From: a virus | Virus record (IMG/VR): IMGVR_UViG_3300047469_000054 | Span: 1 to 64,000 of that record | DNA length: 64,000 nucleotides | Reading direction: 5' to 3' (one strand) | Shown: piece by piece, positions 25,171-60,615 of the stretch | Numbering within the stretch: position 1 is the first letter of the stretch | How the letters are laid out: each line of letters begins with the position of its first letter | Notes under the pieces: generated by a model | The model's input: only the letters and a program-made list of their open reading frames with translations | What the model was told of the DNA's origin: nothing | Database searches by the model: none | Program-made: the position numbers and the translations under genes

Positions 25171-25192
25171 TTAAAGTAGGCCTATTTTTTCT

Positions 25193-25221
25193 TTGACATC
25201 AACGAAGAATCGGCCTATAAC
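25193..25221 (+). promoter_or_regulatory. Near-consensus promoter ahead of a gene-less region
   Basis: TTGACA (25193-25198), 17 bases, TATAAC (25216-25221). The next coding start is over 500 bases away, so the product may be a non-coding RNA or very long leader. Confidence 0.85.
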
Positions 25222-25736
25222 AGACACATAGCCCAAGGCGCAGGGCTTTAGCAAAGATAGCGACCACTACTAGGATCTTTGCTCAACTTGATTACGCGGG
25301 AGGTTGTTATGTAGTGCGGTCACGCGGAAGCGATAGCATGCCAGTTATTTAGATGTTGTGGATTTGGTATTTGACGAATTCGGCCCAATGTGGCCGCTCC
25401 CAAGAGGATAATTGATCATGATGGCGAGACGCCTAGCTATAGATAAGTCCGTACCGCAGCGCGGGGCGCGCTGAAAGGAATATCCTGGATCATTAAAGGG
25501 CTAAGCCCATTGTCATCTCGCCCGTAACGGGTAGACTAGATGAATTTATTATCTGGCTGTATGACTTGCTAAAGCCCATAAGGCGCACGACGCGGGGATA
25601 GGCATTTTCACAGCAAAGCAACCGCTTGATTGCTCACGATCCAGCCCCTAAGCTAGCAGCGCAAGAACCAGAGCTTCGCTATAATGATACGGGCTGCGAT
25701 CAATGAACAATCGGTATCCATAAAGGAGATAGTAAT
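25222..25736 (+). ncRNA. Candidate structured non-coding RNA or long leader
   Basis: No frame of real length. Hairpins follow one another: AGCCC/GGGCT (25230/25243), AGCAAAGAT/ATCTTTGCT (25250-25258/25275-25283), CGGCC/GGCCG (25381/25392), CAGCGC/GCGCTG (25457/25468), GGGC/GCCC (25498/25505), and nested TCATCT-CCCG/CGGG-AGATGA (25513-25543). A start-stop element (GGGAGG, ATGTAG) lies at 25298-25314; an 18-codon frame at 25418 has AGAGGA upstream. A TATAAT at 25680 lacks a good -35. Confidence 0.55.
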
Positions 25737-26096
25737 ATGGAAACAATCGACATTACGCCAACGTGGCGCGACGTAGCAAGAATCATTGCTGCCGTTCTTG
25801 AAAATGGCACTGAGGCTGGTAAGCTGGCAGCTTGGGAGCAGCTAAATTCCATGGCTATGGCTGCCGATGATCGCAATGCTGCCACTCAACAAGCTTGGCG
25901 TCTTGCTGTTGTTGGTGAGAGGCTTGGCGACGCACTGAAGCCATTTGCGGACCTTGGCAACATCTGGCTTCCCGAAAGTGAGGATGATGATAGCGCCTTT
26001 GTGCGCGCCGATGATACGGCGGCAACCGGTGTAACCGTTGGCGACCTTCGCAACGCGGCGCGCGTATACAAGGATATCGCCAATGGCAAAGATTGA
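25737..26096 (+). CDS. Hypothetical protein (119 aa)
   Basis: AAAGGAGA site. Helical N-terminal half (WRDVARIIAAVLENGTEAGK), acidic loop (ESEDDDSAF), C-terminal helix. The C-terminal VTVGDLRNAARVYKDIA segment recalls the end of the protein at 29174 (VDDIRDAASTLTKLA), suggesting a shared small domain. Confidence 0.75.
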   Translation: METIDITPTWRDVARIIAAVLENGTEAGKLAAWEQLNSMAMAADDRNAATQQAWRLAVVGERLGDALKPFADLGNIWLPESEDDDSAFVRADDTAATGVTVGDLRNAARVYKDIANGKD

Positions 26097-36705: not shown

Positions 36706-36733
36706 CGCTCTCATGCACCCATAACGACATACA

Positions 36734-36755
36734 AAGCGCCAGTAGGCGCTTTTTT
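36734..36755 (+). terminator. Rho-independent terminator
   Basis: Stem AAGCGCC (36734-36740) with GGCGCTT (36745-36751), loop AGTA, then T run. Isolates the AT-rich region from upstream transcription. Confidence 0.9.
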
Positions 36756-37132
36756 AATTTGTACATACGTATAGGATTATTTTTCTACAGTTTCGTTATT
36801 TTAGCATCACGAAACGCAGTAGTACTATTTCGCCATAAAAAAACCACGCACTTTTTGTTTTGCTAAGACTACCTTAGTTTTATTTTTATGTTAAGTTGTT
36901 GATTTTTATCATGTTACAATTTATTGGTTAGTGTGTCACAATTTATGCAACCATGCCACAATCATCCTGTATATTAGCTGTTTTTTAGGCGTTTCGCAGT
37001 AGTTCGCACTTTTGATAAACAAAACTGTATTCCTGTTTTAGCCTTAATATCATGTATTTTTGGAATGTTATTTCAAACGCTATAATTTGGTACTTATTGT
37101 AATTTTCATATATATCTAAGTCATTGATTTTT

Positions 37133-37176
37133 AATACGCACTTTTGGTTTTCAAAAAGTGTGAAAAAGTGCGTATT
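37133..37176. repeat. 13-bp inverted repeat
   Basis: AATACGCACTTTT (37133-37145) with AAAAGTGCGTATT (37164-37176), 18 bases apart, built from two of the iterons. Confidence 0.85.
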
Positions 37177-37224
37177 TTGGCAAATAACTGCGTCAGAACT
37201 TTTTCTCACACTTTTTTATTTATC

Positions 37225-37300
37225 CCTACACCCCTCCACACTTCCCCTATATACCTCCTCTTGAGAGGGGTATGTAGGGGAGTGTGGGGGAGGGAGTAGG
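37225..37300. repeat. Large C-rich/G-rich palindrome with G-quadruplex motif
   Basis: An imperfect inverted repeat with about 35-base arms around TTGA. The right arm has four G runs (37267-37270, 37277-37280, 37286-37290, 37292-37294) with loops of 6, 5 and 1, a canonical G-quadruplex pattern on the + strand; the left arm is C-rich. Confidence 0.85.
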
Positions 37301-37393
37301 TGCGAACGATAAGAAAACTACTGCGTCGTAGAAAAGTTGTTGATATGTGTGTGCGGAAAGTGTATGGATGAGCTAACGACGAAAGGAGTCGAT

Positions 37394-37618
37394 ATGTTCG
37401 AAACTGAATTCAAAGGCACGCTGGCAATCAAGGTGGATGGCGACATCAAGCGGTACGTTAAGTTTACGATGGAGGGAGATATTCCTTTGGAGGTATGCGG
37501 TAGGGTTGCCGCTACATTCGCTATTCGAGCGCTAAGCGGAAAGCCGCCTTTCGATGTTGAGATTATTTCCATTGATGAGATGACTCGCACCCACAAGGAT
37601 CGCAATCATCATGACTAA
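37394..37618 (+). CDS. Hypothetical protein (74 aa)
   Basis: AAAGGAG site makes 37394 better than upstream starts. Beta-rich (FKGTLAIKVDGDIKRYVKF) with a central helix; ends His-rich. First gene after the origin-like region. Confidence 0.72.
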   Translation: MFETEFKGTLAIKVDGDIKRYVKFTMEGDIPLEVCGRVAATFAIRALSGKPPFDVEIISIDEMTRTHKDRNHHD

Positions 37619-38162
37619 AGTCCGCAAACGCATCATGCGCCGCAAACGCGCTCGCGTCGGTGACGTTATCTTGTCTCCGGGAAAGAGCACCACATCAACC
37701 GTCGTCATTGACGGCAAGCGTGTACTGGTTCGCCAGAGGATGGACAAGGATGGCGTTATCCGCACGACTACGACCAATGCTGCCATTCTCGAGTCTGACC
37801 TACAGGCGGCGCAGGTTGAGGCGTTGAGAGCGCATCCACTCTATGGCATGGCATTTACGCTGGCTGGAGATATGGGCGCGGGCAAGCGCGGACCACAAGC
37901 GCAAGCTGATGCCGTCCGTACAGGTCTTGAGAGCGGAGAGCCTGACTTGCGCATTTACATCATTGGCGGTAAGTTGCTGTCTGTCGAGAACAAGGCTGAG
38001 AAGACGCCTGTATCTAAAGCGCAGAAAGATAGGCATGCACTCTTGCATTCGCTTGGATTTCAGGTAGAAATCATCAGGACAACGACATGCGACATGGCCG
38101 TTCATCGAGTCATGTTGCTTATGGCGACTGTCGTTCCTGGTTTCATATATGAGGAGAATTGA
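37611..38162 (+). CDS. VRR-NUC domain nuclease
   Basis: 183 residues. Basic N terminus (KRIMRRKRARVG). From about residue 85: KRGPQAQADAVRTGLESG, EPDLRIYIIGGKLLSVENK (PD near 109, E-x-K near 125) and VSKAQKDRHALLHSLGF, the PD-(D/E)XK VRR-NUC pattern. These act as structure-specific nucleases or resolvases; Holliday-junction resolution during phage recombination fits. Overlaps the previous gene by 8 bases. Confidence 0.85.
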   Translation: MTKVRKRIMRRKRARVGDVILSPGKSTTSTVVIDGKRVLVRQRMDKDGVIRTTTTNAAILESDLQAAQVEALRAHPLYGMAFTLAGDMGAGKRGPQAQADAVRTGLESGEPDLRIYIIGGKLLSVENKAEKTPVSKAQKDRHALLHSLGFQVEIIRTTTCDMAVHRVMLLMATVVPGFIYEEN

Positions 38163-38163
38163 C

Positions 38164-39234
38164 ATGGATATCGTTAATATGATTTTGTCGTATTGGTGGC
38201 TACTTGTTCAGATTGCTATCGGCATTATGGCGTTGACAATCGTAACGCTCGTTAGCGCGGCAACCGCAAGAATTATCAGCACGGATCACAAAATGCTAGT
38301 CGACAAACACGATCACCTATTGCGAAATTATCGTTCTGTTGTCGGCAATCTGAATGCTCATAAACGGCGATTGCGGGAAGTAAGGGGTAGCTTGGCGACG
38401 GCTTATGCTTATGATCGCTGCTCAGATGAAACCGTTAAGGCGTTCTCGGCTTGGCTTGCCCTAGGTAGTCCAGGCGCTAATCCAGGCGATGAAAGCAAAT
38501 GGCATACAGGTGGCTTTGTTGGTGGTAATGCTCCGCCTTCAATCGTCAATAATGATTATGTCGTCGCAGAAGATAGATTCGGCTATCATCCTAATGTGGC
38601 TTTCTTTCCTAGTACTGCCAACGTCGTCATCACGCAAGCCCTTGCCGATCAGATTACGGAAGCCAACATCACGCGCAAGCTGGAGGACAGTATCCAGCGT
38701 GGCGAGGATATGGCCATGCATGATGTCGACAATGACCACGACGGAGGCGCTATGCTGCATGCTGACTTTCGCGACGAAACAAAAGAAGAGCGCGTGGACC
38801 GGGTCCGCCAGCAGATTACCGAATCACTTTCAGGCGAAGGCAGGCTGTCACAATGGTTCGGACTCACGCGCGCCGCTTGGGTAACGCTTCCGCGATCGTT
38901 TATGCAGGAAATGCCAGACGAATGGCAGCGTAGGTTCGCTATTTGCCTGGAAGAGATTCAGGACACATTTCCTAACGCACCAAAGGAAATCGCCAATACG
39001 GTCGTTACTGGACGAGTCGGCGGCAAGTTCGTGCGTATTCCCGAATGGGTTAGCAATTACAGGCGCCCTGACTTGGATTTGATTAACGCGTGCCGTCGCG
39101 CTGATGTGGTTTTTGCAGATGACGGCAATAGTTATTCCACCCCCGAACACAATGGCGATGGCAGTGTTTACATTCCTGATAGCGATGATCCCGATGCGGT
39201 TGACTGGATGCGTCAGCGTGTACGCCATGACTGA
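38164..39234 (+). CDS. Membrane-anchored protein of unknown function
   Basis: 356 residues, GAGGAG site. One N-terminal transmembrane helix (WWLLVQIAIGIMALTIVTLV), then a coiled-coil-like stretch (LLRNYRSVVGNLNAHKRRLR), and a large acidic soluble part. No family recognised. Confidence 0.8.
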   Translation: MDIVNMILSYWWLLVQIAIGIMALTIVTLVSAATARIISTDHKMLVDKHDHLLRNYRSVVGNLNAHKRRLREVRGSLATAYAYDRCSDETVKAFSAWLALGSPGANPGDESKWHTGGFVGGNAPPSIVNNDYVVAEDRFGYHPNVAFFPSTANVVITQALADQITEANITRKLEDSIQRGEDMAMHDVDNDHDGGAMLHADFRDETKEERVDRVRQQITESLSGEGRLSQWFGLTRAAWVTLPRSFMQEMPDEWQRRFAICLEEIQDTFPNAPKEIANTVVTGRVGGKFVRIPEWVSNYRRPDLDLINACRRADVVFADDGNSYSTPEHNGDGSVYIPDSDDPDAVDWMRQRVRHD

Positions 39235-39412
39235 TTTCAGAGTAAATGTCACATGTAGAGAAGGCGGTATACATGACGGCAAGCTTCACGTATTGCAAAC
39301 GGTCGTCACGGCTAGTTCATTATGGGAAGCCAAGCAAGAAGCCAAGCGCCGCGCTAGGAATGCTGGTTCTCGCATTATTCATTCGATAACATTGGGGGAA
39401 GATCATGACTGA
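39227..39412 (+). CDS. Hypothetical protein (61 aa)
   Basis: Overlaps previous gene by 8 bases. Strand-helix protein with a basic helix (LWEAKQEAKRRARNAG). Unknown; weak ribosome-binding site. Confidence 0.62.
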   Translation: MTDFRVNVTCREGGIHDGKLHVLQTVVTASSLWEAKQEAKRRARNAGSRIIHSITLGEDHD

Positions 39413-39623
39413 CGTAAGCTACATCATTCGTGCCAAGACGGCGACGGCAACGGTTGTCATTGAGAAATCCATCCAATTGCATTTCGTTGCTTTTGGTGAC
39501 GAAACTGCTCAAGACGCATACAATCGATATATTGCTGGCCTAGCGGCATCAGGTATTAGTTTAAAGGTCATCCGAAATTCATCTCCACGCTTCGTTGACG
39601 ACGATTCCAGCGGCGCCATATGA
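39405..39623 (+). CDS. Hypothetical protein (72 aa)
   Basis: 8-base overlap, GGGGGAAG site. Beta strands then AYNRYIAGLAASGI helix; acidic C terminus. Last gene before the hairpin-rich region. Confidence 0.7.
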   Translation: MTDVSYIIRAKTATATVVIEKSIQLHFVAFGDETAQDAYNRYIAGLAASGISLKVIRNSSPRFVDDDSSGAI

Positions 39624-40079
39624 TCTATTGTGAGACGACGACAAAACGAAAAACCTTTAAATTATATCGCATTACAGGTTTTGTGCTTAGGTCGTCTCAC
39701 ATAATTATTTCGCGACACGGTTGATATGGCATTGCGTTGACGCTTGTTATATCCTGTGGCGCGCGACTTATACCGTAAGCGCTAGCGCCACCCACAAGGC
39801 ATGCTGCGCTATTGGCGAGTGGCGACAATTGTTATCCTTGGCAACATGTCGTCACTCGCAATTATTGACAGGGTAATAAGCGGTGGCTGCAACTTTCGCT
39901 TAGCAATGTATAGACGCTGTCTTGCATTGTCCCTGTCTGCTTAATTGGTGCTGATTAATGTTTAGTGATTCGCTCACGCATGAAGTCCATAACCATAACA
40001 TGGATAGCACTAATGCCCATAGCGACGTCCCGAAGTAGGCCATTGGCTACCGGCTACGGCGCTTAGCGAGCGGTTGAGC
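39624..40079 (+). ncRNA. Hairpin-rich region without genes, candidate structured RNA
   Basis: No frame of real length. Three long structures: TGTGAGACGAC/GTCGTCTCACA (39629-39639/39691-39701) enclosing ACAAAAC/GTTTTGT; a 13-bp helix with one G-U pair (39815-39827/39847-39859); and GACAGGG/CCCTGTC (39867-39873/39931-39937) closing two inner hairpins TAAGCG/CGCTTA (39877/39897) and CAATG/CATTG (39904/39925), like a three-way junction. No strong promoter was seen at its head, so it might be read through from upstream. Confidence 0.5.
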
Positions 40080-40108
40080 TTGACATTGGTATCCTCCAAC
40101 TGTATGTC
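40080..40108 (+). promoter_or_regulatory. Sigma70-like promoter
   Basis: TTGACA (40080-40085), 17 bases, TATGTC (40103-40108), ahead of the gene at 40149. Confidence 0.7.
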
Positions 40109-40148
40109 TTATGCTCCCGCTCGCATTTTCACAGAAGGAGAAAATCAT

Positions 40149-40397
40149 ATGCATCTTTGGGGTAAACTGGTGGATAGTTCTGGCATCGCAGACGACATGG
40201 AAGATGCCGTTGAGGCTGAATTGGCTCGCAGATCATCAATCGGATCTCGCAAGGCATTCATTGAGCGTACGGCGCCTATGTTCTTGCAGGCTGCAATTCA
40301 ACAGGGACGATATGTCGATGATGATGCCATAAAGCTAAGTGTTGCTCGCGCCGATCGTCTCTACAGCGCCATTCAGGATCATGATATTGGCAAGTAA
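40149..40397 (+). CDS. Hypothetical protein (82 aa)
   Basis: GAAGGAGA site; ATG at 40149 preferred over a GTG-type start upstream that would include promoter sequence. Acidic, helical. Unknown. Confidence 0.75.
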   Translation: MHLWGKLVDSSGIADDMEDAVEAELARRSSIGSRKAFIERTAPMFLQAAIQQGRYVDDDAIKLSVARADRLYSAIQDHDIGK

Positions 40398-40695
40398 TAA
40401 CAAGCGCTCCGCAGAAGCCATAGAGGCTCGCAAGCTATACAAGACGGCCAAATGGCGTAGGCTACGCGAGGCGCATGTCTTGGATGAGCCATGCTGTCGT
40501 TATTGCATGCGAGCAGAGGAAATCATGCCGGTTGAGGTTGTGGACCATATTAAACCGCACAAGGGCGACTTGACATTGTTCTATGATCCCGATAACCTCC
40601 AGAGTCTATGCAATCTATGCCATTCAAAGCTTAAGCAGTGGGAAGAGAATAACAAGCTGGTTATACATTTCGATGGCAATGGCTGGCCTATTTAG
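40381..40695 (+). CDS. HNH endonuclease, terminase-associated type
   Basis: 104 residues. RKLYKTAKWRRLREAHV start, CCRYC (38-42), VVDHIKPHKGD (53-63, DH catalytic at 55-56) and CNLCHSKL (about 78-85) are the phage HNH pattern found next to P27-type terminases, where it is needed for cos cleavage in some phages. Here seven small genes and a promoter separate it from the terminase. Confidence 0.85.
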   Translation: MILASNNKRSAEAIEARKLYKTAKWRRLREAHVLDEPCCRYCMRAEEIMPVEVVDHIKPHKGDLTLFYDPDNLQSLCNLCHSKLKQWEENNKLVIHFDGNGWPI

Positions 40696-40705
40696 AGGGT
40701 GTGAA

Positions 40706-40810
40706 ATGAATAGCTTTTCGGCTTATGTTTTCGCTACAATCTTGTCGATTGGTGCTTGGTTTGTCACATTTTACGCCGTTTATGGCTTTCTTACATTTTG
40801 GGGAGTATAA
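40706..40810 (+). CDS. Small membrane protein (34 aa)
   Basis: GAGGGTG upstream. Single transmembrane helix (YVFATILSIGAWFVTFYAVY). Stop is followed one base later by the next start. Confidence 0.55.
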   Translation: MNSFSAYVFATILSIGAWFVTFYAVYGFLTFWGV

Positions 40811-40811
40811 T

Positions 40812-41015
40812 ATGGATAACAATCTCGATGCCTCCCATTCTTGGCGGCAAGTCCAACTTGACGATTACGGTTATTATATCTTAGCTGCAAATGGCGATAA
40901 GCGCCGCGTTCATACGCTTGCAGAGGCTATCGACGTTCTTGCTGAAGAGGGCGCCAAGCGTTGCGCCAATGACATTGCCCGTCGTATCGTTGGCGACATG
41001 GTGACGCGGCCATGA
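40812..41015 (+). CDS. Hypothetical protein (67 aa)
   Basis: GGGGAG site. Trp-start beta part, C-terminal helix (AEAIDVLAEEGAKRCANDIA). Unknown. Confidence 0.7.
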   Translation: MDNNLDASHSWRQVQLDDYGYYILAANGDKRRVHTLAEAIDVLAEEGAKRCANDIARRIVGDMVTRP

Positions 41016-41308
41016 GTCACGGCGTCGAAAACTACTGCATCATCAGCGATGGCACCAACGCTCGCCTTGTCGACACAAGTGGCTCAACGTTTCCGCCACG
41101 TAACGCATGGGACGTTCTCGCTTACGATGGTGAAGAGACAATGAACGGCTATCGTGATTTCGCGTTCAATAAGCCGCTTCCTGGTGACGATCGCACGCCA
41201 GCTTATCGTTGGGGATGGCAGAATGCCCAACGTGACGCTACGCACGCTCGCGATGGCTATGAGGATATTCGTTATGATTATATCGCTATGTGTCGTAGGC
41301 CGAATTAG
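41012..41308 (+). CDS. Hypothetical protein (98 aa)
   Basis: ATGA overlap. Polar, with TYR/TRP-rich C terminus (YRWGWQNAQRDATHARDGYE). Unknown. Confidence 0.72.
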   Translation: MSHGVENYCIISDGTNARLVDTSGSTFPPRNAWDVLAYDGEETMNGYRDFAFNKPLPGDDRTPAYRWGWQNAQRDATHARDGYEDIRYDYIAMCRRPN

Positions 41309-41317
41309 GGGGAAGCC

Positions 41318-41566
41318 ATGAGAGGACTTGAAAAAGAATATCTGGAGCATCGAATTCTTGATGCTATCGAGTTTATCCCGATGTCTAAGGGTGCTATTTG
41401 CGATTTACTTTATGGCAACGAAGATGGTTATTACGCTGTTGACTTAGCTATAAAGAGAATGCGCAAGCGTGGATATGTGAAATTTCATTTTTGCAGATGG
41501 GTAATAACCAACAAGGGAATTGGCGCTCTCAATAAGATGTATAGGTGCGTCTTTGCCGTCAGATGA
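41318..41566 (+). CDS. Winged-helix-like protein (82 aa)
   Basis: GGGGGAAG site. MSKGAICDLLYG, AVDLAIKRMRKRGYVKF and CRWVITNKGIGAL follow a helix-turn-helix/wing pattern; possible DNA-binding regulator. By position, candidate for late-gene control. Confidence 0.65.
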   Translation: MRGLEKEYLEHRILDAIEFIPMSKGAICDLLYGNEDGYYAVDLAIKRMRKRGYVKFHFCRWVITNKGIGALNKMYRCVFAVR

Positions 41567-42665: not shown

Positions 42666-43081
42666 CGTCCATGCACAGCGTTATGCGCACGCCTATCAGG
42701 TATCCATTCGGCAGGCCAGCGCTTGACCAGGACGCGCTGTGGAGATGCGTGGCTAAGACGTATGCGAACTATGATCCGGATCCCATAGACTACGGCCACG
42801 ACATAGGCTCGCATCAGGACGTGGAGCTACACTATTATGCAGTGGATAGGCGTACTCCATGTGGCGCTTGGATCGTGCTAGGGTATGGCGTGCATGGTCA
42901 TGAACGTAGGTTCGTGCACCTTGGTAAGCGCAAGCAGTACGCCAGCAACACAGAAGGCGAGGCCGTGCGTCAGTTCGTTAAGCGCAAGGATAGGCACATC
43001 TCCATCCTGGAGGCGCAGGCCGCCGCCGCGCGCGAAGCTAGGGCTATCGCTATGCAGCACGTCGATGTAGGCTCGACGTAG
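42662..43081 (+). CDS. Hypothetical protein (139 aa)
   Basis: ATGA overlap. Basic, His/Tyr-rich (VHGHERRFVHLGKRKQY), ends in an Ala/Arg coiled helix (EAQAAAAREARAIAMQ). Last gene before the late control region; a terminator hairpin overlaps its end. Confidence 0.73.
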   Translation: MTSMHSVMRTPIRYPFGRPALDQDALWRCVAKTYANYDPDPIDYGHDIGSHQDVELHYYAVDRRTPCGAWIVLGYGVHGHERRFVHLGKRKQYASNTEGEAVRQFVKRKDRHISILEAQAAAAREARAIAMQHVDVGST

Positions 43082-43086
43082 CTTTT
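43059..43086 (+). terminator. Rho-independent terminator overlapping the stop
   Basis: Stem ACGTCGA (43059-43065) with TCGACGT (43073-43079), loop TGTAGGC, then AGC and a T run. Confidence 0.75.
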
Positions 43087-43101
43087 TTATTTATCTAATA
43101 A

Positions 43102-43177
43102 TAGGAATACATTCCTACAAAGATGAACTAATGATTAATATAGGAATATTATTCTAATATGTAGGAATGTATTCTCA
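43102..43177. promoter_or_regulatory. Three operator-like inverted repeats
   Basis: TAGGAATACATTCCTA (43102-43117), TAGGAATATTATTCTA (43141-43156), TAGGAATGTATTCTCA (43162-43177): a TAGGAAT-NN-ATTC core repeated three times, the first a perfect palindrome. They lie 90-160 bases before the late promoter. Confidence 0.8.
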
Positions 43178-43178
43178 T

Positions 43179-43192
43179 GTTGTCTAGACAAC
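43179..43192. promoter_or_regulatory. 14-bp perfect palindrome
   Basis: GTTGTCTAGACAAC directly after the third TAGGAAT repeat; a likely second protein-binding site. Confidence 0.65.
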
Positions 43193-43264
43193 TATGGTGA
43201 TGGTCAGGTGGAAAAATATTCTTCGAAATATCGAAATAAAAGTATTGTTTTTCACTTTTGCGCA

Positions 43265-43293
43265 TTGCCATCGAAATGGATCCATGTTATAAT
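43265..43293 (+). promoter_or_regulatory. Late (structural) gene promoter
   Basis: TTGCCA (43265-43270), 17 bases, TATAAT (43288-43293). It is the only strong promoter between the small-gene block and the terminase, so it probably drives the virion genes. Confidence 0.85.
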
Positions 43294-43495
43294 GGAGGTT
43301 TTGACCGGGGGGGAGTCTAAATGTTGGAAAAATAGTTCTGGCTGGGTACCGGCGGGGGTCAAAAGCAAACGCATCTCCAAAATGGGAAATAGGTTTATTT
43401 TCCTATGTTGCTTGATTTTTTGTGAATTGATTCCTACGTTGATTTGCGTATTGAATCAACCATTTAACACCTATAAACATTAAGGAGTATAGCAT
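43294..43495 (+). promoter_or_regulatory. About 190-base leader of the late transcript
   Basis: No credible gene. Contains TTTTGACC (43299-43306) and its inverse GGTCAAAA (43358-43365), with G runs in between, which could form a hairpin in the 5' leader. The terminase start follows with AAGGAG. Confidence 0.55.
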
Positions 43496-43897
43496 ATGGC
43501 GGGCAGACCGCGCAAGCCACTTGCCAAGGCTAAAATTGAGGGCCGAGATAAAATTCACGCCGGGCGCTATTCAGGCAGAAATGAGCCGAAAGGAACAGAA
43601 GGGGCGGGAGATCCACCCGACTATCTACAGGATGTTGATGGCAACCTAACCCGTACCGCATGGTACCTCTTTACAATTGAGATCCCATGGCTAAACTCAT
43701 CCCATAGGTCGCTATTGGAAATGGCCTCATTGATACGCGGAGAAATCATTGCTGGCGGCATGCCTGGAATTCAACGGCTTAATGCGCTACGTATGATGCT
43801 AGCCCAAATGGGGGCAACTCCAGCGGATGCAACTAAGGTAGGTGTAGGTGGAAAAGATGACGAAGACGAAGACGATGAATTCTTTAACGGTGGCTGA
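43496..43897 (+). CDS. terS: Terminase small subunit (P27 family)
   Basis: 133 residues. AGRPRKPLAKAKIEGRDKIH, YSGRNEPKGTEGAGDPP, then AWYLFTIEIPWLNSSHRSLL (about 55-74) match the P27 family that recognises the packaging site. Ends in a very acidic tail (KDDEDEDDEFF). Its 3' end overlaps the large-subunit gene by 41 bases. Confidence 0.85.
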   Translation: MAGRPRKPLAKAKIEGRDKIHAGRYSGRNEPKGTEGAGDPPDYLQDVDGNLTRTAWYLFTIEIPWLNSSHRSLLEMASLIRGEIIAGGMPGIQRLNALRMMLAQMGATPADATKVGVGGKDDEDEDDEFFNGG

Positions 43898-46031
43898 AAA
43901 GGCCACCGCTGCCGCCCAGCGCCGCGCGCAACAAAAGGAGAAGGCTATTGCCGGAAGACAAAAAGAAGATACCGTATTGGGGAGACAGAAGCATGCGAAG
44001 CCGTTGGTTGCTGCTCAAGAACTTTCGCAAGGCAGAAAGGGAGTGGTGCGGCAAGCTGAAAACGAACAGGTTCGGCAGCCTAACGCACTGGACCGTGCTT
44101 CTGCCTATGCCCGTGCGGTATTGGATGGCGATATCATTGCCGGTCCACATGTGCGAAATACGTGCCGTAGACATTTTTCTGACCTTGACGTGGGCCGAGA
44201 TCGCGGTATCTTCTTTGATTTAGCTAAGGCGCAACGCATTGTAGATTTCTTTGAGAAAAAGCTTAAGCTGTCTGAGGGGCAGTTTGAGGGCTTGCCGTTC
44301 AAGCTTGCGCCTGTTCAGGTGTTTAAGCTGGCGTCAATATTCGGATGGTATCAAGCCCCTCTTGTGGGCGGTAAATATGATTTCGATGCTCCCAAAGGCG
44401 TCGTTAAGGGTGTAAATATTGCCGCTGGAAGGTATGCGCGTAGACGCTTTCGACGCGCGTATATCGAAGAGGGCAAAGGGAACGGCAAAAGCCCCTTTGC
44501 CGGGGGCATCGGCCTATATGGCTTATGCGCAGATGGCGAAGGCGGAGCGCAGATTTACGCCGCCGCCGCTAAGCAAGCGCAGGCGAACATTCTGTTTCAG
44601 GATGCCGTAAAGATGCGCGCTGCAAGTAAGGCGCTAAAAAAGCGCATTAATGGGATATCTGGTGGTCCAGGCAAGGAATACAATATGGCGCATTTGGCGT
44701 CAGGATCTTTCTTTCGTCCAATCTCAAAGGAGGCGGGCAAGACAGGCTCCGGCCCGCGCCCGCTATTCGCCTTGTGCGATGAAGTGCATGAGCATCCAGA
44801 TAGAAAGATTATGGAGATGCTGGAACGTGGCTTTAAGTTCCGACTGTCTCCGCTACTGCTTATGATCACTAATAGCGGTAGCGATCGCAATTCCATTTGT
44901 TGGGAAGAGCACGAATGGGCATGTAAGGTGGCCGCTGGCACTAGGACGCCTGACGATGATTTTACCTATGTTGGTGAGCCAATTGGCGATGATACGTTCT
45001 CGTATGTTTGCGCTATGGATAAGGATGACAACCCACTAACTGATCCGTCGTGCTGGTACAAGGCTAACCCAATGCTGGATATTATCCTTTCTCAAGAATA
45101 CCTAGCTGGCGTCGTGAAAACCGCCAAGGATATTCCAGGTCAGAGAAACGGTATTTTGCGGCTGCATTTTTGCACTTGGACAGATTCCGATAAGGGATGG
45201 ATGAGTCGAGAGATAATCGATAGGGCCATGGTTGACTTTGATCCTTACGAAATTCATAAGGAGGGAATTATTGCCGCTGGCGTTGACTTGTCCAAGACTC
45301 GAGATTTGACCGCCGCAGCTTTCGTCGTAGAGACTGGAAAGGTTACTGTTGATAGAACGAATTCGGATGGCTCCATTGAGGAAATGGAACTACCTACGTT
45401 TGATGCGTGGGTAGAGGCGTGGACTCCAAAGGACACTATTCTAGCACGCTCTGAAGCAGACAAGCAACCATATGTATTATGGTCGGAAACCATGTATCCC
45501 GGAACTGATCAGCCATATTTAAGGTCGACTCCTGGGGAGCGCATTAGATATGATCATGTCGCATCATTCTTTGTGAAGGTTAATCAAGAGATGCGCCTTA
45601 AGGGCATTGCATATGATAGATATGCATATGATAAGTTTAAGGAGGAGTGCGAAAATCAAGGGCTTGATGTTAAGCATATAGCCCATCCGCAAGGCGGCAA
45701 GATCCGCGCTAGGGTAGACCCTAAAGATGTTGAATTGGCTGAGAAGGCCGGAAAACCAAAGCCTCTTGGCTTATGGATGCCTGGGTCTTTGAAGTTATTC
45801 GAAGACGCTATTATTGATGGGCGCGTGCGCTTGCGTATGTCGCCCGTGTTGATGACTGCGCTTATGGGCGCGGCTCTGGCTAAGCCAGATGACCAGGGAA
45901 ATACATGGTTTGTTAAGGGTGACACAACAGTTAGAATCGACCCGGCTGTCGCTCTAGTTATGGCGTTTGGATTAATTCACGATATGCCGATTGACGAAAC
46001 TGAAGGTAAATTCCAAATGATGTTTCTGTAG
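43857..46031 (+). CDS. terL: Terminase large subunit
   Basis: 724 residues; AGGTGG five to six bases before ATG 43857 beats the GTG at 43848. It is longer than usual by a basic N-terminal segment of about 70 residues (AAAQRRAQQKEKAIAGRQK). Packaging ATPase motifs: Walker A EEGKGNGKSPF near 203-213 and Walker B LFALCDEVHEHP near 303. C-terminal nuclease part has GVDLSKTRDLTA (metal Asp near 477) and DRYAYDKF. Packages DNA into proheads. Confidence 0.92.
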   Translation: MTKTKTMNSLTVAEKATAAAQRRAQQKEKAIAGRQKEDTVLGRQKHAKPLVAAQELSQGRKGVVRQAENEQVRQPNALDRASAYARAVLDGDIIAGPHVRNTCRRHFSDLDVGRDRGIFFDLAKAQRIVDFFEKKLKLSEGQFEGLPFKLAPVQVFKLASIFGWYQAPLVGGKYDFDAPKGVVKGVNIAAGRYARRRFRRAYIEEGKGNGKSPFAGGIGLYGLCADGEGGAQIYAAAAKQAQANILFQDAVKMRAASKALKKRINGISGGPGKEYNMAHLASGSFFRPISKEAGKTGSGPRPLFALCDEVHEHPDRKIMEMLERGFKFRLSPLLLMITNSGSDRNSICWEEHEWACKVAAGTRTPDDDFTYVGEPIGDDTFSYVCAMDKDDNPLTDPSCWYKANPMLDIILSQEYLAGVVKTAKDIPGQRNGILRLHFCTWTDSDKGWMSREIIDRAMVDFDPYEIHKEGIIAAGVDLSKTRDLTAAAFVVETGKVTVDRTNSDGSIEEMELPTFDAWVEAWTPKDTILARSEADKQPYVLWSETMYPGTDQPYLRSTPGERIRYDHVASFFVKVNQEMRLKGIAYDRYAYDKFKEECENQGLDVKHIAHPQGGKIRARVDPKDVELAEKAGKPKPLGLWMPGSLKLFEDAIIDGRVRLRMSPVLMTALMGAALAKPDDQGNTWFVKGDTTVRIDPAVALVMAFGLIHDMPIDETEGKFQMMFL

Positions 46032-57797: not shown

Positions 57798-59963
57798 ATG
57801 GCCGCAACAGACCTTGAAAAGCTTGTAGTTCAGCTTTCCGCAGACATTACGAAATATGAGAAGAGCCTAAATAAGGCGCTGTCCCAAACTAATTCTAACG
57901 CCTCCAAAATGGAGAAGCGTTTTAAATCCATGACTACAAGCATTAATTCCTCATTGAATGGCATCGGTGGCAAGGGATTTGCCTTGGGTAGCGGCTTTTT
58001 GGCTGGCGTTATCAGCGTTGATAAGATCGCGCAATATTCTGATGCGTTTACGACTATTCAAAACTCGCTGAAGATTGCTGGCCTACAGGGGGAAGAGCTT
58101 AATTCAGTATTTGAAAAGCTCACAGCTCAGGCACTAAAGAATCACGCGCCCGTTGATGACTTGGCTAAGCTTTATGGCAAAGCGGCCATGCAGCAAAAGA
58201 ATCTCGGAGCGTCATCGGAAGATCTGCTAAAGTTCACTGACGCCGTAGCTGCGTCATTGCGCGTTTCTGGCACGTCGGCCCAAGACGCTAGCGGCCCGTT
58301 GCTCCAGCTTGCGCAATCGCTTGGTACTGGTCGCGTCATGGCCGAAGAATTCAATTCTGTTCTTGAGGGTATGCCAGCTCTTGCGGGTGCTATCGCTAAC
58401 AACATCAAGCAGGCGAATGGAAGCATCGGCACGCTAAAACAATTAGTGTCTAGCGGCGATATCTCCAGTCGAGCGCTCTTTGACGCGGCAATCCAAGGCG
58501 CGCAAGAGCTAAATGATAAGGCCAATCTAGCCGGGACTACGATTTCGCAAGCCATGACTGATTTGCGCACCAATCTTATTGTTGCGGTCGGTGGCTTCAA
58601 TGATGCTACACATGCTAGTGATTTCTTGGTTAAGGCCATTCAAGACCTTGGCAATGATTTAAAGGGCGCAATTACCGACGTCGAAAATCTTGTAGTGTCG
58701 CTTCAAGGCCTAGCACCTGGGCCTGCCATCCAAGAGTTGATTACCGGCATTAACGGCGTTGGCCTTGCCGCTCGTGATGCATATGCGCTTGTGCGTCAGC
58801 TTGCGGGCGGCGTTGCGGCTGAAGTCAAAGATAATCTCATGCCAGATCAAGCGGCAAGAGATAGAGAGAGCGCTATTCTAAGCGTTTATACGCCAGATCA
58901 GGCGGCAAAGGACAAGGCCTCTGTTCAGGATACGCTTAATGCCATCGACAAGATGGCTGCTGATAATGCTGAAAAGTTTGATGCGCTTCCCGCCAATGGG
59001 CCGCAACCGACATCAAGGCCAAAGCCGACACCAATTGACCTTGATGATCCAAAGTATGCTGTTCCTGGCCAGAAAGACAAAGCCGGAAGCGGTAAAGCCA
59101 AAAAGGAAAAGCTTGACGCATATCAGAAAGAAACGCAATCCATCAAGGATCGTACAAACGTTCTGAATGCGGAAACGGCTGCGCAGGCGCAAGTTAATCC
59201 GCTGGTTGATGACTACGGCTATGCGCTTGCAAAGGCCAAGGCTCAGCAGGACCTTATTAACGCCGCTACGAAGGCGCACAAGCCGATCACGGATGAAATG
59301 CGTGCTGCTATCGACCTGACGGCGGAAGCGTATGCTCAGGCAAGTGTAGAGGCTGAAAAGCTTGCGGAGAAGCAGAAGAAGGTAAAGGAAACGCAGCAGG
59401 AGATTTCCGATACCGCTAAGGATGTTACGCGCGGTATTGTTGATGGCTTCATCGCGGGTAAAAGTGCCGCAGATATCTTTTCGGACGCATTGACAAAGAT
59501 CGCGAATAAGCTTCTCGATTCCGCCTTTGATTCTCTATTCGATTCCAAGTCTAGCGGCGGCGCAGGCTTGGGAGGCGCCATCTCTAAGTTGTTTGGCTTT
59601 GCCGATGGCGGCTATACAGGTCCAGGCGGCAAGTATGACGCGGCTGGTATTGTGCATAAGGGCGAATATGTTATCCCTGCCGATAAGGTGAGAAAGATGG
59701 GCGTCGGCGGCATTGAAAGAATGCTTGATGGCTTTGCCGATGGCGGCCCGGTTCAAGCCCCGCGAATTTCCAAGGTTTCGCCTGGAGCGTCTTCTGGTAA
59801 CGGCTTGTCAATTAATTATTCACCCACATATGATAATCGTGGGATTGATTCCGATAGGCTGGCAAGGCTAGAGCAGATCCAAGAAAAAGATAGAAGTGAA
59901 TTTGCTAGCCGTACCGTTGATACAATCCGCAAGGCTAGAAATAATAATGTAAAGGGAATCTAA
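57798..59963 (+). CDS. Tail tape measure protein
   Basis: 721 residues. N terminus LEKLVVQLSADITKYEKSLN and the tape-measure domain (FTTIQNSLKIAGLQGEELNS, QALKNHAPVDDLAKLYGKAA, GRVMAEEFNSVLEGMPAL, about 75-220). Central Lys/Gln/Ala coiled coil, a hydrophobic patch near 540-575, and a C-terminal IVHKGEYVIPADKVRKMG end typical of siphovirus tape measures. At 1.5 Angstrom per residue this would predict a tail of roughly 110 nm. Confidence 0.92.
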   Translation: MAATDLEKLVVQLSADITKYEKSLNKALSQTNSNASKMEKRFKSMTTSINSSLNGIGGKGFALGSGFLAGVISVDKIAQYSDAFTTIQNSLKIAGLQGEELNSVFEKLTAQALKNHAPVDDLAKLYGKAAMQQKNLGASSEDLLKFTDAVAASLRVSGTSAQDASGPLLQLAQSLGTGRVMAEEFNSVLEGMPALAGAIANNIKQANGSIGTLKQLVSSGDISSRALFDAAIQGAQELNDKANLAGTTISQAMTDLRTNLIVAVGGFNDATHASDFLVKAIQDLGNDLKGAITDVENLVVSLQGLAPGPAIQELITGINGVGLAARDAYALVRQLAGGVAAEVKDNLMPDQAARDRESAILSVYTPDQAAKDKASVQDTLNAIDKMAADNAEKFDALPANGPQPTSRPKPTPIDLDDPKYAVPGQKDKAGSGKAKKEKLDAYQKETQSIKDRTNVLNAETAAQAQVNPLVDDYGYALAKAKAQQDLINAATKAHKPITDEMRAAIDLTAEAYAQASVEAEKLAEKQKKVKETQQEISDTAKDVTRGIVDGFIAGKSAADIFSDALTKIANKLLDSAFDSLFDSKSSGGAGLGGAISKLFGFADGGYTGPGGKYDAAGIVHKGEYVIPADKVRKMGVGGIERMLDGFADGGPVQAPRISKVSPGASSGNGLSINYSPTYDNRGIDSDRLARLEQIQEKDRSEFASRTVDTIRKARNNNVKGI

Positions 59964-59964
59964 T

Positions 59965-60615
59965 ATGGCGATCACATTTCCTCGCGATTTTCTAACTGGC
60001 TTCCCCGGATGGAATACTGAATTCAAATTGGAATTTAGGCAAGATAAGAGCCGTTCGGCGGGCGGCACTACCTATGTGAAAGATATGGGGACGCCAATAT
60101 GGCGCGCAACATATACGACTCGAGTCCTAAGCCCAAATGAGCTTGATAGATGGAGAGCCATTATCGATACTCAGGACGGCGGGCTGAATGCGTTTATTGC
60201 TGTGCCGCTATCAAGGTGCTATCCAATCCTCTACCCTAACGGTAGCGGCTTGTGGGCAACGACATGGACAAGTGGCGTGACCGGTCAGGGCAATATTTCT
60301 GCTATCGTCACACCAAATAAGGAGATTTCTATTTCTGGTTTGCCAGTCGGATATCAGGCAAGCGTTGGTGATATGGTTCGCATTGGTAGCCGCAATCTCC
60401 ATCGTATTGTTGGTGTGTCCGGCCCGGCAAGTGGTGCAGGTGTCATCACCGTTGAAATTCGTCCTGGATTGTGGCCGGAATCCGCAGTAGGTAACGTTGT
60501 CTATTTTCCGCGACCATGGTGCAGAATGGTTGTCGATCCTAGTAGCGTCTCGACAACGGCGGACAGAACTACTGGACGCGGGACGCTGTCTTTTGATGGA
60601 TGGGAGTATCGTTAA
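59965..60615 (+). CDS. Distal tail protein (DUF2460, GTA gp12-like)
   Basis: 216 residues. FPGWNTEFKLEFRQDKSRSA and the MGTPIWRATYTTRVLSPNEL segment with WRAIIDTQDGGLNAF match the DUF2460-type distal tail protein. C-terminal beta domain (FPRPWCRMVVDPSSV). Starts two bases after the tape measure. Confidence 0.8.
   Translation: MAITFPRDFLTGFPGWNTEFKLEFRQDKSRSAGGTTYVKDMGTPIWRATYTTRVLSPNELDRWRAIIDTQDGGLNAFIAVPLSRCYPILYPNGSGLWATTWTSGVTGQGNISAIVTPNKEISISGLPVGYQASVGDMVRIGSRNLHRIVGVSGPASGAGVITVEIRPGLWPESAVGNVVYFPRPWCRMVVDPSSVSTTADRTTGRGTLSFDGWEYR

Follow-up and report, generated by a model that had tools for sequence, protein, structure and literature searches.

A strongly folded, probably RNA-encoding gap ahead of the packaging genes of a rhizobial-type siphophage

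A gene-free gap of about 500 nt, situated upstream of the HNH nuclease and terminase genes of a rhizobial-type siphophage, very probably encodes a folded RNA, a reading that we draw from one of its hairpins, which dozens of Rhizobiales phages carry at the corresponding position with compensating base changes. The gap (39624-40148) lies in a stretch of 64,000 nucleotides, here called the window, belonging to a 66.9-kb virus record in IMG/VR; its lack of a long ORF, its exceptional fold and the conservation and covariation of its hairpin F, which stands in the packaging-gene sense, were computed directly. Two wider proposals can be built on these sequence data. At slightly less than even chances, an undescribed, widespread and fast-evolving modular RNA of Rhizobiales phages, carrying a UU-bulge hairpin that is usually preceded by an anti-Shine-Dalgarno hairpin, would control the packaging or late operon in cis, having been overlooked even in phage 16-3. 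Held a little more tentatively, the region 39.63-40.13 kb would be a plus-strand non-coding RNA of about 500 nt, a diverged member of this modular element that acts in cis as the leader of the late operon.

The gap, its neighbours and its predicted fold

The large terminase of the window is 64% identical, in alignment, to that of Rhizobium phage RHph_X2_26 and 56-61% identical to those of other rhizobial phages. Around and within the gap, we located or predicted the following features (plus strand where marked +):

37611-38162: VRR-NUC-like nuclease gene, upstream of the gap
38149-39234: gene for a protein of no assigned kind, after the VRR-NUC-like gene
Ending at 39623: two small ORFs, directly before the gap
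39595-39624 (+): sigma70-like promoter candidate, TTGACG-18-TATGAT, 10/12 matches; predicted start ~39631, at the foot of hairpin 1
39629-39701 (+): hairpin 1, 11-bp stem TGTGAGACGAC/GTCGTCTCACA (39629-39639 with 39691-39701) and an inner stem (39646-39660 with 39672-39684)
39723-39753 (+): hairpin 2, predicted in the MFE fold; no homologous sequence found
39756-39791 (+): hairpin 3, predicted in the MFE fold; no homologous sequence found
39815-39859 (+): hairpin 4, 19 bp made up of a 13-bp outer and a 6-bp inner helix, then AATTAT
39867-39937 (+): three-way junction, P1 GACAGGG/CCCTGTC (39867-39873 with 39931-39937) and two arms (39877-39902 and 39903-39930); no homologous sequence found
40039-40060 (+): small hairpin of the MFE fold, preceding hairpin F
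40062-40128 (+): hairpin F, GCGAGCG/CGCTCGC, UU bulge, GAGC/GCTC, apical part with CCTCC, then ATTTTC
40149-40397 (+): 82-aa ORF (MHLWGKLV...) with ribosome site AGAAGGAG, shortly past hairpin F
40387-40695 (+): HNH endonuclease gene, the syntenic anchor across relatives
Between the HNH and small terminase genes: small genes
43496-43897 (+): terminase small subunit gene
43848-46031 (+): terminase large subunit gene

Neither strand of the gap holds an ORF of at least 60 aa, in line with the sequence-only reading, which called the region gene-free; small ORFs of 30-51 codons do occur. The 82-aa ORF that follows, tried as an anchor for finding relatives, gave no family match and no relative among the viral contigs searched. 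Folded as plus-strand RNA, 39620-40155 reaches an MFE of -192.2 kcal/mol; its dinucleotide shuffles average -153.9 ± 7.0 (z -5.44), and none of 100 folds as well, so the energy comparison proposed along with that reading comes out in its favour. When the whole window is divided into 115 windows of 510 nt (mean -0.97, SD 1.46), the gap ranks second (-5.85 mean-SD units), and 39601-39760 ranks 10th among 799 windows of 160 nt. The 510-nt stretch with the best fold of the window, 45461-45970 (-6.1 SD units), is part of the sequence that codes for the large terminase. Ahead of the small terminase gene, the region 43081-43496 is possibly a cos or terminator region, and the 160-nt window 43041-43200 folds there at z -5.1.

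On the plus strand, predicted hairpins cover the entire gap, and the three long hairpin structures described earlier all reappear in the MFE fold (39629-39701, 39815-39859 and 39867-39937, about 309 nt altogether). The extent first given for the region, 39624-40079, is indeed structured; however, the element runs on to about 40126, and the tail left out contains the most informative hairpin. The minus strand of the gap also folds better than its shuffles (z -3.83), but the plus-strand fold is better by 19 kcal/mol and has 20 G-U pairs against 9, which fits an RNA read from the plus strand. Searches of the window with Rfam 15, at gathering and permissive thresholds, gave chance matches alone and none at the gathering threshold; no tRNA or tmRNA fold was found in the window, and the DNA of the gap showed no meaningful similarity to phages and plasmids.

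A second structured RNA had been suggested at 25222-25736, a suggestion that we could not uphold: 25180-25738 folds like its shuffles on both strands (z -0.71 on plus, -0.77 on minus). Another gene-free and AT-rich region, 36710-37340, folds at z -8.5 because a long and nearly perfect inverted repeat (CCCTACACCCCTCCACACTTCCCC...GGGGAGTGTGGGGGAGGG) occupies about 37225-37300, and it also holds several repeats of the GTGCGTATTTTG / GCACTTTT type.

The promoter-like site before hairpin 1 is the top site in 38500-41500, an interval in which the number of such sites equals that of shuffles, and 2% of random window positions score as high. No conserved sigma70 promoter of equal quality was found in the relatives, and a promoter at 39595-39624 is suggestive only.

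A modular element in related phages

Our searches of the collections turned up no close kin of the window phage. Related loci were fetched through alignment of the terminase, 80 viral loci and later 80 genome loci. The closest phage by terminase (L002, 63%) has no HNH gene at the corresponding place and no detectable copy of the element, and its gene-free region there is a different, C-rich one; an ORF at 36.48 kb, tried as an alternative anchor, led to this phage and two distant contigs that otherwise have little in common with the window, and was rejected. Many of the relatives do have gene-free gaps upstream of HNH, and in several the gap has a strong fold (z -4 to -7). These gaps have blocks in common, some of which are tRNAs, and Rfam searches of the gaps returned tRNAs only. 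In the relatives, the element consists of hairpins A, B and C, a variable domain and hairpins E and F, often with tRNAs after them. Such tRNA genes (Met, Pro, Gly, Thr) stand close behind the structured RNA at L007 6715-6863, L033 6979-7150 and L074 6288-6523, and there are none in the window.

Hairpin A often reads GUGAAGGGG..CCCC, while hairpins B and C, the latter ending in GGGCGUAACUAY, are directly adjacent and covary. One pair of hairpin C is near-invariant, being U-G in 16 of 17 cases and C-G in the remaining one; on the opposite strand, the U-G pair would be A-C, and this points to pairing in a plus-strand RNA. R1, a covariance model of B and C, matches about 30 viral loci and, at E < 1e-4, 14 Rhizobiales genome loci, named prophages included, in Rhizobium, Brucella/Ochrobactrum, Ensifer, Mesorhizobium, Falsochrobactrum, Consotaella and other genera. 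Its copy number is one in each of six whole genomes, and in a sample of 199 genomes from one family, 10 have it, again in one copy each. By analogy with HK022 putRNA, about 70 nt long with two stem-loops (PMC9378689), the adjacency of B and C could suggest a put- or nut-like antitermination RNA, the nascent hairpins of which, by binding either RNA polymerase itself or a phage factor, would allow the terminators of the late operon to be read through. A location where the late genes begin and the terminator-like hairpin F downstream would suit such a role; we nevertheless find it quite improbable, given that B and C are not clearly recognisable in the window and that the put elements of HK022 belong to early operons.

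Hairpin E carries a CUCCUC(C) anti-Shine-Dalgarno loop in nearly all the relatives examined, and its stems diverge freely. That is the design principle of the alpha-r14/NfeR1 and cuckoo RNAs, which bear anti-Shine-Dalgarno loops on hairpins with freely diverging stems (PMC3927594, PMC10746234), and the main rival to the leader reading follows from it: E and F could be the 3' part of a trans-acting small RNA that, as proposed by analogy with alpha-r14 and cuckoo, would use the loop to block translation of host or phage mRNAs. A single copy per genome fits this explanation, as does the CCUCC that the window has in the apical region of hairpin F. On the other hand, part of this CCUCC is base-paired, the window has no separate hairpin E, the fixed place ahead of the packaging genes favours action in cis, the large 5' hairpins A-C are left unexplained and there is no match to an Rfam small RNA family. 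On balance, a trans-acting RNA seems to us unlikely.

Hairpin F, with the motif [stem]-UU-GAG[CU]..GCUCC-[stem], is terminator-like and has an invariant UU bulge and invariant GAGC/GCUC pairs. The motif was found in about 40 loci, oriented like the packaging genes, and a strict census counted 47 loci in sense. The census also gave one minus-strand match; the one locus of this kind that could be identified, L180, appears to be deposited in reverse, as its R1 match and its VRR-NUC gene both lie on the minus strand of the contig, and it is counted as sense. The compensatory changes in relatives that had been named as a check on the fold are seen in the stem of this 3' hairpin: 95% of its cells are paired, and the covariation of 0.32-0.33, against 0.13 in shuffles (0/500), is lost when the register is slid. 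The window has one copy of the motif (40073-40117, stem 40066-40124), with a stem sequence of its own, GCGAGCG/CGCUCGC. The covariance models R2 and R3, built with the window left out, both give 40062-40128 the top score of the 64 kb, 20.2 bits (E 0.032 and 0.015), and the next-best match lies about 8 bits below. These modest E-values probably come from the apical part, 33 nt long. A genome search with R2 and a fast filter missed the window copy, and the unfiltered R2 search recovers it. No strict motif occurred in 9.6 Mb simulated from the dinucleotides of the window, a census that was not fully blind, as the motif had been spotted by eye in the window before it was written.

In several members, UUUCGUU-like tails follow hairpin F, and in the window, AUUUUC and then a ribosome site do so. 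Together with a similar U-bulged hairpin after HNH in several relatives, this terminator look would allow the gap to be ordinary intergenic sequence, that is, an intrinsic terminator plus chance hairpins. Such a reading appears very improbable to us: a z of -5.4 over 500 nt, the second rank of 115 and hairpins throughout the gap all speak against it, and so does a UU-bulge motif that stays invariant while the stems covary. Several relatives have hairpin F without a good U tract, so that termination is not general. Furthermore, the hairpin is inverted in L005, L010, L056, L078 and phage 16-3, where the 3' arm carries the bulge, and the inverted copies speak against a mere terminator and in favour of a three-dimensional motif that is recognised. 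Just after HNH, L020 (6910-7060; also L027, L026 and L041) has a hairpin with the loop TTCTCGACCTCT, complementary to GAGGTC/GTCGAGA further along, and after it a U-bulged, terminator-like hairpin (GCGGGTGAGC..GCTCCCCGC); these post-HNH hairpins are possibly located in the cos region.

Within the window, hairpins A and B, as well as a separate E with a CUCCUC loop before F, are not recognisable. Hairpin 4 is possibly a diverged counterpart of hairpin C, which precedes AACTAY; this is suggestive only, with R1 matching 39800-39865 in the right order and scoring 5.9 bits there (E 0.08 when the gap alone is searched, 9.2 for the window). We have therefore filed the window's element as a diverged relative that has hairpin F in common, and not as a full member.

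In phage 16-3 (NC_011103), hairpins C (59514-59538), E (59755-59792) and F (59795-59826) can be located, the last two inside the annotated p109 (59553-59855; L009 5554-5856) and just before HNH. The annotated cohesive end, 60186-60195, is about 360 nt past E and F, on the far side of HNH, which would make the element the head of an HNH-cos-terminase stretch on the circular intracellular genome. This arrangement bears on the possibility of a DNA-level element, in which inverted repeats, folded or bound as DNA, would act as a cos-proximal packaging signal or a replication signal. Its closeness to the HNH and terminase genes and to the 16-3 cohesive end is what such an element might show, as is the better-than-shuffled fold of the minus strand; yet the cos of 16-3 is on the other side of HNH, the near-invariant U-G wobble and the one-sided C-G to U-G changes indicate plus-strand RNA pairing, and RNA offers the simplest account of a conserved anti-Shine-Dalgarno loop. 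On the strength of the U-G evidence and the cos position, a packaging signal at the DNA level becomes less likely, and we consider it improbable.

A possible role at the head of the late operon

The reading that we prefer, though tentatively, is a cis-acting leader RNA, and it is based on the position of the element, its sense orientation, the terminator-like hairpin F and the promoter-like site before hairpin 1. What we infer beyond the computed features is transcription, attenuation and a role for the anti-Shine-Dalgarno loop. Transcription would start at about 39631, before hairpin 1, and proceed toward the packaging operon. Hairpin F, with its GC-rich stem and the AUUUUC ahead of the ribosome site, could then act as an attenuator or partial terminator, and the anti-Shine-Dalgarno loop, together with the hairpins upstream, might gate read-through into the HNH and terminase genes, or their translation, late in infection.

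If real, the element would be an RNA control element heading the packaging genes in many phages and prophages of Rhizobium, Sinorhizobium, Brucella/Ochrobactrum and Mesorhizobium, and one that has no Rfam family. In the open literature searched, we found nothing on late-gene control in these phages and no mention of a non-coding RNA in 16-3-like phages. With such an RNA, late-gene control would become directly testable in phage 16-3. Some annotated small ORFs may also prove spurious, p109 of 16-3 being an example.

Comparison with known RNA systems

In phage lambda, the late and packaging genes are preceded by a non-coding leader, that of PR' (6S RNA), and by the terminator tR'. The lambda leader is, to our knowledge, not an elaborate conserved structure. 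It comes with a late promoter, a Q-binding element and a Q gene upstream; the promoter candidate seen in the window is a sigma70-like site.

Like the element described here, GOLLD and ROOL are large structured RNAs associated with phages and often found near tRNAs, as is the case in the relatives; the element is smaller, has other conserved motifs and has no Rfam match. With HK022 putRNA, the likeness lies in adjacent phage-encoded hairpins placed where an operon begins, but the put elements reside in early operons, where two hairpins bring about antitermination in cis without a phage protein. The alpha-r14/cuckoo small RNAs of Alphaproteobacteria (NfeR1, SmelA075) and the window's relatives are alike in having a conserved anti-Shine-Dalgarno loop on diverging stems. 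The former are host genes with at least three hairpins with CCUCCUCCC loops; the element, in contrast, has one loop, extra 5' hairpins, a place in a phage packaging locus and no match in Rfam, and the window, in place of several CCUCCUCCC-loop hairpins, has a single CCUCC.

The nearest comparison is with the elements of the 16-3 type. The window differs from these in that A, B and E are unrecognisable and C is doubtful, in the 33-nt apical part of hairpin F with its CCUCC and in having no adjacent tRNA. A strongly folded gap without long ORFs is nevertheless found alike in the window and in many Rhizobiales phages, and with 16-3 and other phages of that order, the window has in common the syntenic position, the sense orientation and, in hairpin F, the bulge with its GAGC/GCUC.
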